Positions 8,287 to 48,710 of a DNA stretch of 64,000 bases are shown here, piece by piece; positions within the stretch are counted from its first letter, which is position 1, and each line of letters opens with the position of its first letter. This stretch comes from Treponema sp. (GTDB taxonomy: Bacteria; Spirochaetota; Spirochaetia; Treponematales; Treponemataceae), in assembly GCA_024690865.1 (NCBI GenBank), contig JAILON010000089.1, forward strand, positions 1-64,000. Direction: 5' to 3'. Both the position numbers and the translations under genes were made by a program. Below the pieces are notes generated by a model. That model saw nothing but the letters and a program-made list of their open reading frames with translations, had not been told where the DNA came from and did not search any database.

Positions 8287-8318
8287 CGGCATTTGTCCGG
8301 AAGACTTGCTCCGGAATG

Positions 8319-8494
8319 CTACAAGGCTTGTAGAAGAATGTTGCAAAGCTTGTACAAGAATGTTGCAAGGCTTGTACAAGAGTGTTGCAAGGCTTGTAGA
8401 AGAATGTTGCAAAGCTTGTGCAAGAATGTTGCAAGGCTTGTACAAGAATGTTGCAAAGCTTATACAAGAATGCTGTAAGGCTTACGCCCACGAC
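8319..8494. repeat. 22-bp tandem array, 8 units (TTGCAAAGCTTGTACAAGAATG)
   Basis: Unit starts at 8319, 8341, 8363, 8385, 8407, 8429, 8451, 8473; exact 22-nt period. Confidence 0.9.
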
Positions 8495-8576: not shown

Positions 8577-10811
8577 ATGGCTGCTGCAAAAAGAGTGTTT
8601 GAGCGTATCATGCGCTATATATTTGATTCCTCAATCAATATAAAGGAACGGTCGTTCATCGTCTTTTCGATTGCGGTCCTTATCGCCCTCTTTGCGGCGG
8701 TACCCTGCGGGCTTGCCATGCACGAGCCGCCCTTGGCCACGATATCCACCCTGGTAGGAGCCCTGTTCTTTACCGCCTACGTCATCATCTCGTTCAAACG
8801 GAAGACAATCGAGCGGGCAAAGATTGCCATTTCCATAATCATTTCGTTCATCTTCCTTCCTGCCATGTTCTTTACGAACGGCGGCGTTGAAGGCGGGACC
8901 CCCATCTGGCTCCTGCTCGGAACCATCTATATCTCGCTGATTCTGGAAGGCAAGCTCAAGGTCATCATGCTGGTATGCGAGGCGTGCGTCATAACCGCAT
9001 GCTGGCTCATCGGCTATGCGTTTCCCGAGCTTGTGACCGGCTATTCCCGGCGGGGCAACTACTTTGACAGCCTGGCGGCCCTGTTCATCGTCAGCGGCAT
9101 CATCTATACGATTATCTCCTTCCAGAACAGCCTGTACCGCAAGGAAGAGGAGCGCAAGAACGTGCAGCGGCTCTTCTCCCAGACTGCGACCGCCCTGGCG
9201 AACGCGATTGACGCGAAGGACAAGTACACGCACGGACACTCGTCCCGGGTCGCGGAATACTCAAAGAAAATTGCGGAGCTTGCCGGGAAGAGCCCGGAGG
9301 AATGTGACGAGATTTACTATGTCGCCCTCCTGCACGACGTGGGGAAGATCGGCGTCCCGGAGAAGATAATCAACAAGGAGGGCCGCCTGTCGCCCGAGGA
9401 GCTTGAATGCATCAAACAGCACCCGGCAATGGGGGCGCAGATCCTGAAGAGCATCACGGAATATCCCCGCCTGAGCGTTGGGGCGCATTTCCATCACGAG
9501 CGCTATGACGGCAAAGGCTATCCCGAGCGGCTCAAAGGCAGCGACATTCCAGAAGTTGCGCGGATAATCTCCGTCGCGGACTCATACGATGCCATGGCGT
9601 CCAAGCGGAGCTACCGGGATCCCCTGCCGCAGGACAAGGTCCGCGAGCAGTTGATAGAAGGATCGGGGACGCAGTTTGACCCGAAATTTGCCAACATCAT
9701 GCTCCACCTCATCGACCTGGATACGGACTACAGCATGAAGGAACGGAAAGACATACAGGAGCTTTCCGGCAGGAACGAGATGCTCGTGGAGGAACACCGG
9801 GAGGAGGTTTCCGAAGGCATCCTGCTTTCTTCGTGTTTGACGTGCATCGATATGAAGGTGTCGGCCGGAAAATCATCGGCCCGCACGCCGCGGGCATCCA
9901 TTGTCCTCTTTGACTCGCTGGACGGCCTTTTCCATGCCGACGAGCAGGGAAAGAAGGAACTGGTCTATTACGAATACTGCGAGATCCTGTTTGACGGGCA
10001 GTGCGTCAACGCCGGGGCGCGGAAAGTTGAGTCTCGCCCATGCGAAGAGAAAGGCCCTTCCCTGTCCGCGGGGGAATACCGTATAGAGGCTGTCAGGGTA
10101 AAGGATCATGCGCGAGTCAGGATATTTGGCGCGGACGGCGCACGGGAATATATTCTTGCCCTGCCGGATAGCTCGCGCTATGTGTACGTGGGCCTTACCG
10201 GGGCGCACTGCTGCATTAGCGATGTGAAAGTGGACAGGTCCGGGATACAGACCGGGGAAGACGCTATCCCGCGCATCGCCCCGAAAATCAGCTACATCAA
10301 CGAAGCTGCCGGGGATGTCCCGAACGTTCAGGTTGACGGCTACCGCACGGAATCAACGAAGGGGATCCCGGTGCGGGACGGCACGACGATTTCGTTCCAC
10401 AGCAAGAGCCTGCCCACGGCGCGGCTCGTCTGGCATTGCCCCTCGTATGTCGTTTTTACGTCCGACGATGGAACCGTGGGTGGCGGGAATTACAAGGAAT
10501 TTTCGCTCGTGCGGCTTGACGGCGAGAACTGGGAGTCCGGCGACGCTGCGGAGAACGAGCTTCTGGTGGACAGGCAGGACTTCAACGGCTGGGACGCATG
10601 GAAGCGCTTTAACAAGGAAGGCTTTGACAGTTACATCTCGTTCAGCAGGGAAGGGAATACCGTCATTTCCCAAACCAAGAACGCCGGCATCTCCATCAGG
10701 AACATCACCAAGATAAAGGTGAGGGCAGATGAGGTTTACGTGGCCCTCTCTGGCGACCAGTGCGCCCTCACCGGCATCAAAATCACGCAGATGGGAAGCA
10801 CCCAGACATGA
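8577..10811 (+). CDS. Membrane HD-GYP protein with long C-terminal beta-rich extension
   Basis: N-terminal TM helices; YTHGHSSRVAEYS...LLHDVGKIGVP...HHERYDGKGYPE; large extra C-terminus. Confidence 0.85.
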   Translation: MAAAKRVFERIMRYIFDSSINIKERSFIVFSIAVLIALFAAVPCGLAMHEPPLATISTLVGALFFTAYVIISFKRKTIERAKIAISIIISFIFLPAMFFTNGGVEGGTPIWLLLGTIYISLILEGKLKVIMLVCEACVITACWLIGYAFPELVTGYSRRGNYFDSLAALFIVSGIIYTIISFQNSLYRKEEERKNVQRLFSQTATALANAIDAKDKYTHGHSSRVAEYSKKIAELAGKSPEECDEIYYVALLHDVGKIGVPEKIINKEGRLSPEELECIKQHPAMGAQILKSITEYPRLSVGAHFHHERYDGKGYPERLKGSDIPEVARIISVADSYDAMASKRSYRDPLPQDKVREQLIEGSGTQFDPKFANIMLHLIDLDTDYSMKERKDIQELSGRNEMLVEEHREEVSEGILLSSCLTCIDMKVSAGKSSARTPRASIVLFDSLDGLFHADEQGKKELVYYEYCEILFDGQCVNAGARKVESRPCEEKGPSLSAGEYRIEAVRVKDHARVRIFGADGAREYILALPDSSRYVYVGLTGAHCCISDVKVDRSGIQTGEDAIPRIAPKISYINEAAGDVPNVQVDGYRTESTKGIPVRDGTTISFHSKSLPTARLVWHCPSYVVFTSDDGTVGGGNYKEFSLVRLDGENWESGDAAENELLVDRQDFNGWDAWKRFNKEGFDSYISFSREGNTVISQTKNAGISIRNITKIKVRADEVYVALSGDQCALTGIKITQMGSTQT

Positions 10812-10907: not shown

Positions 10908-11264
10908 CTACCCGAACGTTGCCCGGATGCTGTCCGTCGCTTCCTCCGCGTCCTCGATGGTTTCCTTGAGGCCAAGGAAGTAGCCGCCCAGCCGGGATTC
11001 CGCCTGCTCGCAGCCGGTAAAGCTGATGTGCCAGGGCTCGTGTGCTTCGGTCAGGCAGTCATAGAGTGCGTCGAGGTTCCTGCCGTAGTAGTCCGGCAGG
11101 GGAAGGTTTTGGGCAAGCTTGTTGTGCAGGGCTTCCTTGTCATGTACGTCCGAGAGGTCAATCGTGTAGTATTCCGCGCCGTCTGGGCTGCCCGGGTCGT
11201 CCGCGCTGTCCTGTCCCTGTGTTTCTTCACTGAACATATTCGGTTCTTTCCCTTTCCCGCTCAT
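10908..11264 (-). CDS. Barstar-family ribonuclease inhibitor (antitoxin)
   Basis: LPLPDYYGRNLDALYDCLTE matches the barstar core YYGxNLDALWDCLT. Confidence 0.85.
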   Translation of the reverse strand: MSGKGKEPNMFSEETQGQDSADDPGSPDGAEYYTIDLSDVHDKEALHNKLAQNLPLPDYYGRNLDALYDCLTEAHEPWHISFTGCEQAESRLGGYFLGLKETIEDAEEATDSIRATFG

Positions 11265-12067
11265 TCGCGTCCATATAGTAGCTCGAATGTCTCGTAGTGG
11301 TCGCCGGTGTAGTAGACGAGGCCGTCATTGGAGAACACGATTCTCTTTGCCCCGCGGGACTTCTTGCCCATCGTGCCGATGTCGCACTCGGTGTAGGTCC
11401 GGCCCTTCTTTTTGGGCAGCAGGCCCTCCCGGTTGCCGAATCGGTCGCCGCCGATGCTCTTGCCGGGGGCGGCATCGTCCACGCTGCCGAACGTGTCGCC
11501 CCAGCCCAGCTCCTTTGCTTCCGCCTTGGTAATGAAGTTATCCGGCAGGTGGCCGTAGGTGTGGATGTAGAGGGCGACATCGTCCTTGCTCGTATACCGG
11601 CCGTCCTCGGGCAGGGTAGGTGCGGGGGCACTGCTTGCGGGGCTGCTGGCTGTCGTCCCTGTGGCGGCTTGTAGCGTCCCTATGTCTGCCTGCGCCGTCC
11701 CGGTGTCGGTCTGTGGCGTGGAGGGGCTGCCGGCTGCCGTAGCATGACTGTCGATTGTTGCGGCTTCTTGTTCGGGGGCTGGCGGACTTGCGGTTTGTTC
11801 CGGGCTGTCGCTGTCGGACAGTATGGTGGCGGACGGACTGCTTGTGGCCGCTGATTCTGATTCTGCTGTCGCTACAGGCTCGTTCTCCTCGATGACCGTG
11901 ACCGCATTGCTTGCGGCCTGACCTGCCGTTCCTCCGTCAGCTCCGGCTCCCCGCGTCCATTTCCTGAACGCGACGATGGCGAGCAGGACCAGGCAGATTA
12001 TGGAAAGAATCTTCCTCGTCTTGTTCCAGTCCTTGCCGCCCTTCTTGTCTGTCGCCTTACGCTCCAT
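11261..12067 (-). CDS. Barnase-family ribonuclease with N-terminal TM anchor and Ser/Thr/Ala-rich linker
   Basis: YGHLPDNFITKAEAKELGW...APGKSIGGDRFGNREGLLP...RTYTECDIG...GAKRIVFSNDGLVYYTGDHYETF. Confidence 0.88.
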   Translation of the reverse strand: MERKATDKKGGKDWNKTRKILSIICLVLLAIVAFRKWTRGAGADGGTAGQAASNAVTVIEENEPVATAESESAATSSPSATILSDSDSPEQTASPPAPEQEAATIDSHATAAGSPSTPQTDTGTAQADIGTLQAATGTTASSPASSAPAPTLPEDGRYTSKDDVALYIHTYGHLPDNFITKAEAKELGWGDTFGSVDDAAPGKSIGGDRFGNREGLLPKKKGRTYTECDIGTMGKKSRGAKRIVFSNDGLVYYTGDHYETFELLYGRE

Positions 12068-13964
12068 AGGCCCTCACCAGCGTCTCCACTTCCTCGGCGT
12101 ATACGTCTATGCCGCTCTTCCAAAAGGCCTTGTCACGGATGTCGAATCCCGCCTTGGCGCACAAGTCCTCGCAGGACATGTTGCCCGTGTCGGCAAGGAG
12201 CCGCTCGTAGCTTTCAGTGAACGCCTTCCCTTCCTTTCGGAAGCTGGCGTAGAGGGCTGCGGCGAAGAGCTGGCCGAACGCGTAGGGGAAGTTGTAGAAG
12301 TCCAGCTCCGTGCTGTAGTAGTGGCACTTGAGCGCCCACATGTATTCGTGCCGCTCGTCATCAAGGCCGGACCCGTAGCTTTTCTCCTGTGCCTCCGCCA
12401 TCAGGCGGCAGAAGTCGTCCGCGCCCAGCTCGCCTTTCTCCCGCGCCTCGAACACGGACTTCTCGAAGTAGAATCTGCTCAGGATGTCCACGAGGACCTG
12501 CGCCACGTCCTGCAGGTCAAGCTCGATGATGCGGCACTTGTCCGCCTCGGATGCGGTCGCAATCATGTCCTGCTTGACCAAGGTCTCCGCAAAGGTGGAG
12601 GCGGTCTCGGCGAGGGTCATGGGGTAGTCAAAGAAGAGGGGGCTTTTCCCCTTCATGCAGTGGAAGTGGAATGCGTGCCCCAGCTCGTGCGCCATCGTGA
12701 TGATGTCCGGGAACTTGCCGCTGAAGTTGCAGAGGATGCGGCTCTGGTGGCCTTTGGCGAAATCCTCGTCGTATGCCCCGCCGACCTTTCCGGGGCGGAT
12801 TTTGGCATCGACCCAGCCGGAGGAGAACGCCATGCGGGCAAAGTCCCCCATGTTCTTGGAGAAGGAGTCGTATTCCTGTATGACGTAGTCCTTTGCTTCG
12901 TCGAAGGTCCATTCCTTCTCGAACAAGGACTGGCCGCCTGTCCCTTCAGAGCCGCCCACCCCTTCAGAGCTGCCCGCTTTTTCGCCGCCGCTTTTCGCCG
13001 TCCGAGGGGCGGGCAGGGGAGCGAAGAGGTCGTAGAAGGCCAGCCCCCTCCCGTCCGTTCCTGCCCGGTCGCTCGCGGTCTGCCCGCTTTTGCGGAGTAT
13101 GGCTGCCTTGGTCTTGAAGTAGTTCCGCCAGACCGGCAGGGAGTCCTCGATTGCTCCGATGAGGGCGTCCAGGCTTTCTTTGCTCAGGCGGGAGGAGCTG
13201 AGCGCCCTGTCCAATGCGCTTTTCCAGTTGCGGCGGCCGTTCAGCATGACGGTCTCGCCCTTCAGGTTGTTCAGGCAGGCGGCGAGGGCGACGCGGTTGG
13301 ATCGCAGCAGCTCAAGTTCTTTTGCGTAGGCTTCCTTGCGCTCGTCCTTGTCCGCGCTGGAGGCAAGGCCCCGCAGCTCGTTGAACGTCCGCCCCTTCTC
13401 GTCCTGCAGGGTGCTGATTATCTGCTCCTGCAGGCGGCTCCAGGCCTCGCCGCCGGTCTTCTGCATGTCGGACGCGAGCTTTTCTTCCGCCGCGGACATC
13501 TGGTGGGCGCTGTCGTCCATCATCTCCGAGAGGATGTACTCGTAGTCCTTGTACTCCGGGAAGCGGGCGTAGAAGTCGTCCATGTATTTTTTGTGGGAGA
13601 CCAGGACGAGCGAGAGCTTCCGCTGGTATACGAGCAGGCTGTTCACAAGGTCGGTCGTCTCGTTCAGGCGGTTCAGCTTCGCGGGGTCCGTCGTGTCCGT
13701 GGAATAGGAGACGTATGCGTACTTGCAGAGCGTCCCGCTCATCGCGGCGCAGTTCTCGTATTCCTTCAGGAAGGGGGCAAGCCATGCCGCGAAGTCAAAG
13801 TTCTCGTTGCCCTGCTTGGTGAATTTGTCCGCGCTCTCCAAAAGGGAGGCGATGTTGCCTATCCGCTCCTTGCAGGAGGCAAGATATGCCGTATATTCGT
13901 CGCTGCCGGACTGGCCGAAGATGCCGTCCAGCTTCCATGTCGGGATGTTGTCTGATGTGTTCAT
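12057..13964 (-). CDS. pepF: M3-family oligoendopeptidase (PepF-type)
   Basis: MAHELGHAFHFH (HExGH) zinc motif; size and C-terminal layout. Confidence 0.88.
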   Translation of the reverse strand: MNTSDNIPTWKLDGIFGQSGSDEYTAYLASCKERIGNIASLLESADKFTKQGNENFDFAAWLAPFLKEYENCAAMSGTLCKYAYVSYSTDTTDPAKLNRLNETTDLVNSLLVYQRKLSLVLVSHKKYMDDFYARFPEYKDYEYILSEMMDDSAHQMSAAEEKLASDMQKTGGEAWSRLQEQIISTLQDEKGRTFNELRGLASSADKDERKEAYAKELELLRSNRVALAACLNNLKGETVMLNGRRNWKSALDRALSSSRLSKESLDALIGAIEDSLPVWRNYFKTKAAILRKSGQTASDRAGTDGRGLAFYDLFAPLPAPRTAKSGGEKAGSSEGVGGSEGTGGQSLFEKEWTFDEAKDYVIQEYDSFSKNMGDFARMAFSSGWVDAKIRPGKVGGAYDEDFAKGHQSRILCNFSGKFPDIITMAHELGHAFHFHCMKGKSPLFFDYPMTLAETASTFAETLVKQDMIATASEADKCRIIELDLQDVAQVLVDILSRFYFEKSVFEAREKGELGADDFCRLMAEAQEKSYGSGLDDERHEYMWALKCHYYSTELDFYNFPYAFGQLFAAALYASFRKEGKAFTESYERLLADTGNMSCEDLCAKAGFDIRDKAFWKSGIDVYAEEVETLVRAYGA

Positions 13965-18247: not shown

Positions 18248-18339
18248 GTCCGCGTCGTCGGGCTTCGTTAGTCCGCGTCGTCGGGCTTCGTTAGTCCGCG
18301 TCGTCGGGCCTCGTTAGTCCGCGTCGTCGGGCCAGGGCG
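18248..18339. repeat. 23-bp tandem repeat (GTCCGCGTCGTCGGGCTTCGTTA), 4 copies, overlapping the stop of the GGDEF-EAL gene
   Basis: Unit starts at 18248, 18271, 18294, 18317. Confidence 0.85.
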
Positions 18340-33187: not shown

Positions 33188-33272
33188 GATGGAGCCTCCT
33201 GTGTGCGTTTCAAGTGGGGCAACGGTGCCTGTCGCCCCTGTGTTTCCCTAGACTAGCACACAAACAGAAAAT

Positions 33273-33352
33273 TTGTAATATTGCAACAAAAAATTTACAA
33301 TATTGTAACGGAAAATTTACAATATTGTAACGGGAAAATTACAATATTGTAA
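33273..33352. repeat. 22-bp-spaced palindrome array (TTACAATATTGTAA), 4 units, in a divergent promoter region
   Basis: Palindromes at 33273, 33295, 33317, 33339, exact 22-bp spacing. Confidence 0.92.
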
Positions 33353-33508
33353 CGGAAAAATTTCAGTACTACAAAAAAAAATTTGCAGAAAAACAAAAAA
33401 ATGCAAAAAAAATGGCCAACGCACTAAAATTCTGTGCGTTGTACTCTAGTTTCGACTTTTGAATGACGCTATAATTCCCCCAGTTTTATAAAGTATAGGG
33501 CATGTAAG

Positions 33509-48490: not shown

Positions 48491-48710
48491 AACAGCTGTT
48501 ACGTGTGAGCCGAACAGCCGTTACGCGCATCCATAACAGCCGTTACGCGCGAGCCGAACAGCCGTTACGCGCATCCATAACAGCCGTTACGCGCGTCTAT
48601 AACAGCCGTTACGCGCGTCCATAACAGCCGTTACGCGCGTCCATAACAGCCGTTACGCGTGTCCATAACAGCCGTTACGTGCGAGCCGAACAGCCGTTAC
48701 GCGCGTCCAG
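48491..48710. repeat. 22-bp tandem array, 10 units (AACAGCCGTTACGCGCGTCCAT)
   Basis: Unit starts every 22 bp from 48491 to 48689. Confidence 0.93.

Follow-up and report, generated by a model that had tools for sequence, protein, structure and literature searches.

Two adjacent genes on the reverse strand of the window, by which we mean the whole 64,000-nucleotide stretch of Treponema sp. DNA that was analyzed (contig JAILON010000089.1), encode proteins that we infer, with near certainty, to act as a barnase-type RNase and its inhibitor. Both open reading frames lie where a previous sequence-only reading of this DNA had placed them, with the barstar (immunity) gene directly downstream of the RNase gene. 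The host genome carries one member each of the corresponding families, PF00545 and PF01337. The features of the locus are as follows.

12057..13964, reverse strand: M3-family oligoendopeptidase gene, the upstream neighbor (PF01432/PF08439), judged to lie outside the system
11261..12067, reverse strand: gene for the predicted tethered barnase-type RNase, 268 aa (helix ~14-37, linker ~40-157, barnase domain ~158-268)
11957..12028, reverse strand: predicted membrane helix, aa 14-37, from hydrophobicity and a DSSP helix at 14-37
11597..11950, reverse strand: Ser/Thr/Ala/Pro/Glu-rich disordered linker of ~118 aa, with low pLDDT and fast evolving
11264..11602, reverse strand: barnase catalytic domain, aa 156-268, with K181, E227, R238, R242 and H257
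10908..11264, reverse strand: barstar-type inhibitor gene, 118 aa (PF01337), with a possible alternative start at codon 10

The RNase protein matches PF00545 at 75.4 bits (cut-off 24; Pfam), and a phmmer search against the PDB returns barnase with an E value of 1.2e-30 over aa 161-262. AlphaFold2 models were built with 43 and 47 related sequences for the two proteins. The barnase domain is modeled with pLDDT values of mostly 92-97 and one block at 84, and its best Foldseek matches in the PDB are again barnase (TMt ~0.92, E 3e-13), with ~52% identity to the Bacillus amyloliquefaciens enzyme in the structural alignment. As noted previously, equivalents of barnase Lys27, Glu73, Arg83, Arg87 and His102 are all present, namely K181, E227, R238, R242 and H257. 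All 102 homologs have the identical residue at the positions of Glu73, Arg83, Arg87, His102, Asn58, Glu60 and Tyr103, and 101 of the 102 do so at that of Lys27. These alignments indicate that the active site of a barnase-type RNase is intact, and RNase activity is predicted.

The smaller gene had been described as a cognate barstar, and this description stands. Its 118-aa product matches the PF01337 Barstar model at 75.5 bits (cut-off 23.4; Pfam), finds barstar in the PDB by phmmer (E 6.8e-07), and yields a predicted structure that matches barstar with a TMt of 0.87-0.89. Barnase touches barstar in their known complex through Lys27, Arg59, Arg83, Arg87 and His102, and the window RNase has equivalents of all five. 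The inhibitor in turn carries equivalents of Tyr29, Asp35 and Asp39, although Glu76 is replaced by Asp; Asp35 is conserved in 88 of 88 homologs and Asp39 in 86 of 88. The protein has no signal or transmembrane segment (maximum hydrophobicity of -0.05 over 17 aa), as is true for homologous barstars with one borderline case aside, and it would be expected to stay inside the cytosol. An ATGA overlap between the two genes had been proposed. The overlap is literally present in the window, but the three closest relatives have their first barstar ATG 12-24 nt past the toxin stop. Because of this, and because the window gene has a second in-frame ATG at codon 10, behind a GGGAAAGG stretch, the true barstar start is uncertain. 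Among linked pairs generally, the barstar domain mostly begins 7-35 nt past the RNase open reading frame.

The N-terminal part of the RNase agrees with the earlier claim of a membrane anchor. Specifically, AlphaFold2 and DSSP give a single continuous helix at aa 14-37 with RK near its end, and peak hydrophobicity reaches 2.43 over 17 aa. A strongly hydrophobic N-terminal helix is typical of the treponeme homologs, and positive charge on the N-terminal flank exceeds that on the C-terminal flank in 26 of 27 of them, equals it in one, and is never lower. The helix is followed by the linker, whose Ser/Thr/Ala/Pro-rich composition had been recognized correctly and whose pLDDT is ~45-52 over most of its length, but which spans ~118 aa (residues ~40-157) rather than roughly 90. 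Median linker lengths in the homolog sets are 73 and 78 aa. The treponeme homologs carry the same linker-plus-domain layout behind their helix as the Clostridial forms. Among the latter, 59 of 75 have a lipobox-like motif, which implies lipid anchoring and therefore export of the RNase domain. The Clostridial forms thus appear mostly to be lipoproteins, and the treponemal forms to have a membrane helix. Given the predicted topology, we consider an RNase tethered to the envelope and located outside the cytosol to be probable.

Relatives L032, L033 and L034 share a conserved [IL]I[GC]GADKP[TA]VAVLLP-like motif after the transmembrane segment that is missing from the window protein, and a similar VIGGSDGPTEIF is present in Clostridial homolog L083. 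A literature search found no paper on the GGADGPT motif.

Neighbor conservation is evident in these same three close relatives, in which the pair occupies the same place and its frames are maintained. The RNase domain is 88-94% identical to theirs with dN/dS values of 0.03-0.11, the inhibitor core has dN/dS values of 0.13-0.35, and the linker is only 27-44% identical. These comparisons point to strong purifying selection on the RNase domain and to a linker that is free to diverge.

Within the treponeme family as a whole, 31 of 274 genomes carry PF00545, with one copy per genome. A scan of genome contigs yielded 427 relatives, and the 80 kept for comparison come mostly from gut and rumen Clostridia, with 42-79% identity in the best segment. 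A barstar gene is linked to the RNase gene in 67 of 76 Clostridial loci and in 21 of 26 treponeme loci. When relatedness and genome incompleteness are ignored, a barstar occurs in each of the 27 treponeme-family genomes that have the tethered RNase versus 8 of the 247 that lack it, and in 61 of 71 PF00545 genomes of the Oscillospiraceae-type set versus 7 of 130 others. Three Clostridial genomes with the RNase (L052, L082 and L107) yielded no barstar. Distances among toxins and among inhibitors are correlated (Mantel r 0.45, reached by 0 of 2000 permutations). A tree of Clostridia and treponemes built from 111 columns requires 4 label changes and is too short to resolve the direction or number of transfers; the design may have a single origin across both groups. 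As predicted from these proteins, the tethered barnase design recurs in gut treponemes and Clostridia, and our literature search found no paper that deals with a tethered or lipoprotein barnase from gut bacteria.

The window pair shares its fold, its catalytic residues and the three conserved inhibitor contacts with barnase and barstar of B. amyloliquefaciens (PF00545/PF01337). Unlike the Bacillus enzyme, which is secreted, the window RNase has a predicted membrane helix and an extended linker before its domain, and its gene, adjacent to that of the inhibitor, overlaps a peptidase gene. Balifase of Bacillus licheniformis is described as an extracellular RNase that is induced under phosphate starvation and shares an operon with a barstar ortholog (PMC5021464). 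Like the window protein, it is an N1/T1-type RNase paired with a barstar ortholog, but its host belongs to a different phylum from Treponema, and the available text of that report describes the enzyme as extracellular and mentions no membrane tether. Simple barnase-barstar pairs have been interpreted as an incipient, non-polymorphic toxin-immunity arrangement (Zhang et al., 2012; PMC3482391), and the window pair has the same toxin-then-immunity order and non-polymorphic character. Since such simple pairs have already been described, we class the window pair as a tethered variant of the known barnase-barstar pair. The accessible part of the same study names no spirochaetes among Tox-Barnase taxa, nor does it mention a lipoprotein or transmembrane tether for barnase.

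Together, we favor as the best explanation, and as a likely one, that the locus encodes a membrane-tethered, extracytoplasmic barnase-type RNase and a cytosolic barstar inhibitor. The N-terminal helix would insert the RNase into the membrane, and the flexible linker would keep the folded domain beyond it, in the periplasm of a diderm such as Treponema or, in monoderm Clostridia with their lipoprotein forms, at the cell surface. Barstar inside the cell could neutralize any RNase that is mis-inserted or has folded ahead of export, guarding the cytosol of the producer. The likeliest use would be guanyl-preferring cleavage of RNA outside the cytosol, as by the secreted Bacillus enzymes. These Bacillus precedents lead us to favor extracytoplasmic RNA breakdown over a weapon, although our confidence in this role is evenly balanced. 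An inner-membrane tether in a diderm leaves the RNase without an obvious substrate, which counts against the best explanation. Moreover, a test of RNA nutrition finds no enrichment of the 5′-nucleotidase family PF02872, which occurs in 8 of 27 genomes with the tethered RNase versus 121 of 247. The natural job of even the textbook barnase-barstar pair is poorly defined. A tethered form that is common to gut Clostridia and treponemes, that uses two kinds of anchor (lipid and transmembrane) on one linker-plus-domain design, and whose inhibitor is kept even when unlinked offers a comparative handle on the purpose of the pair.

The sequence-only reading had proposed instead a possible role in inter-bacterial competition, with the tethered RNase released by proteolysis. 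In the form considered here, the RNase would be shed in this way or passed by contact into neighboring cells, and barstar would serve as the immunity protein. The gene order is that typical of polymorphic toxin systems, as far as the available text on these systems goes (PMC3482391), and the patchy distribution of the RNase in the treponeme family is in keeping with such a role. In addition, RHS-type polymorphic toxins of the same genus (L174 in genome G128, and probably L029 in G077) have a homologous C-terminal barnase and a barstar-like partner. In these proteins, however, a divergent barnase domain is joined to an RHS delivery part, whereas the window protein has only a transmembrane helix and a disordered linker where a delivery domain would be. 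Secretion-system genes are not among the commonest neighbor families, the RNase is present in one copy per genome and conserved across two phyla, and its mean distance is low (0.22-0.27) compared with that of the faster-changing inhibitors (0.51-0.62). Furthermore, a periplasmic inner-membrane tether alone cannot reach another cell. We find nothing specific for competition and regard it as unlikely. L029, L174 and L175 (G143) of this genus are each recorded either as an RHS-type protein that ends in a barnase-like domain and has a barstar-like partner or as an RHS remnant with a barstar-like gene nearby.

Somewhat less probable still is that the protein is an ordinary secreted barnase, made with a cleaved signal peptide and a long pro-region and left without a tether. 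In favor of this reading, barnase and balifase of Bacillus are extracellular enzymes, possible AxA-like sites follow the hydrophobic stretch in some homologs, and IVA before FRKW is a possible cleavage site in this protein. Inspection by eye nevertheless reveals no signal-peptidase I site that is conserved among the treponeme homologs, the predicted helix of the window protein runs continuously from 14 to 37 with RK near its end, and the lipobox-like motifs point to lipid anchoring in most Clostridial homologs.

We judge it improbable that the pair is a membrane-anchored toxin-antitoxin or abortive-infection module with its RNase in the cytosol. Adjacent toxin and inhibitor genes, and a barstar that is kept even when unlinked, would suit such a module, but the charge rule places the domain outside in 26 of 27 treponemes and the lipobox-like motifs of Clostridial homologs again indicate export. 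The pair also matches no PADLOC family, and searches of phage records and viral contigs gave no hit. Identity as a defense system was rejected on the PADLOC families, and carriage by a mobile element on the phage and viral searches and on plasmid records, none of which covers 80% of the query.

Functional coupling of the RNase to the overlapping M3 peptidase, for example through processing or release, is very improbable: the four closest genomes share one and the same 11-nt overlap, but no match to the peptidase was found around 16 other treponeme-family RNase loci with flanks of several kb, the peptidase has no export signal or transmembrane segment and is apparently cytosolic, and related M3 peptidases occur in most genomes of the genus whether the RNase is present or absent. 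The overlap itself is as described earlier, since the RNase start falls within the last 11 nt of the peptidase gene, and it recurs in L032, L033 and L034 (in L034 when the second ATG is taken). Coupling as a general feature was therefore rejected as confined to these genomes. The earlier PepF-type label holds insofar as the protein is an M3-family oligoendopeptidase, but the PepF equivalog TIGR00181 scores far below its cut-off. The best model is TIGR02290 at 518.8 bits, below its cut-off of 561.7, and NCBIfam places the protein near M3_fam_3 and away from PepF proper.

The inhibitor is far from the RNase gene in five treponeme genomes (G072, G080, G099, G106 and G205). The unlinked barstar of G205 is a stand-alone form in a 98-aa open frame, and those of the other four are fused to a GNAT acetyltransferase (by Pfam in G080 and G099, by eye in the others). 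A low-molecular-weight tyrosine phosphatase is the fusion partner of barstar in six Clostridial genomes whose RNase gene adjoins one for a Spo0A-like response regulator (fusion by Pfam in two). Because barstar is kept when unlinked and has repeatedly been built into other enzymes, its binding of barnase may regulate or sense something beyond protection of the producer. The fuller proposal, in which gut anaerobes of two phyla widely share a non-polymorphic, envelope-tethered barnase system with such an added role, is speculative and we would not expect it to hold.

Barstar fusions were recorded at L169-L173, L181-L183, L185-L188, L023 and L084 (GNAT in Treponema, low-molecular-weight tyrosine phosphatase in Oscillospiraceae, and others), with barstar joined by sequence appearance to an ABC ATPase at L023 and to a PLP-type ammonia-lyase at L084. 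At L007 and L016, both treponeme loci with an unlinked barstar, the RNase gene overlaps a following gene that by eye resembles an arginyl/leucyl-tRNA-protein transferase.

Clostridial loci have varied, mostly housekeeping neighbors, the commonest being PHP downstream (11 of 64) and an ABC exporter upstream (6 of 62), and their commonest neighbor families include no delivery module or secretion-system genes. No RNA families were found at 7-16 kb of the window. An HD-GYP protein of 744 aa at 8577-10811 is convergent with the pair, and ~350 of its C-terminal residues have no Pfam match. Tandem arrays of 22-23 bp units lie at window positions 8314-8483, 18248-18332, 33263-33384 and 48491-48709, and a 48-bp tandem array occupies positions 1-216.
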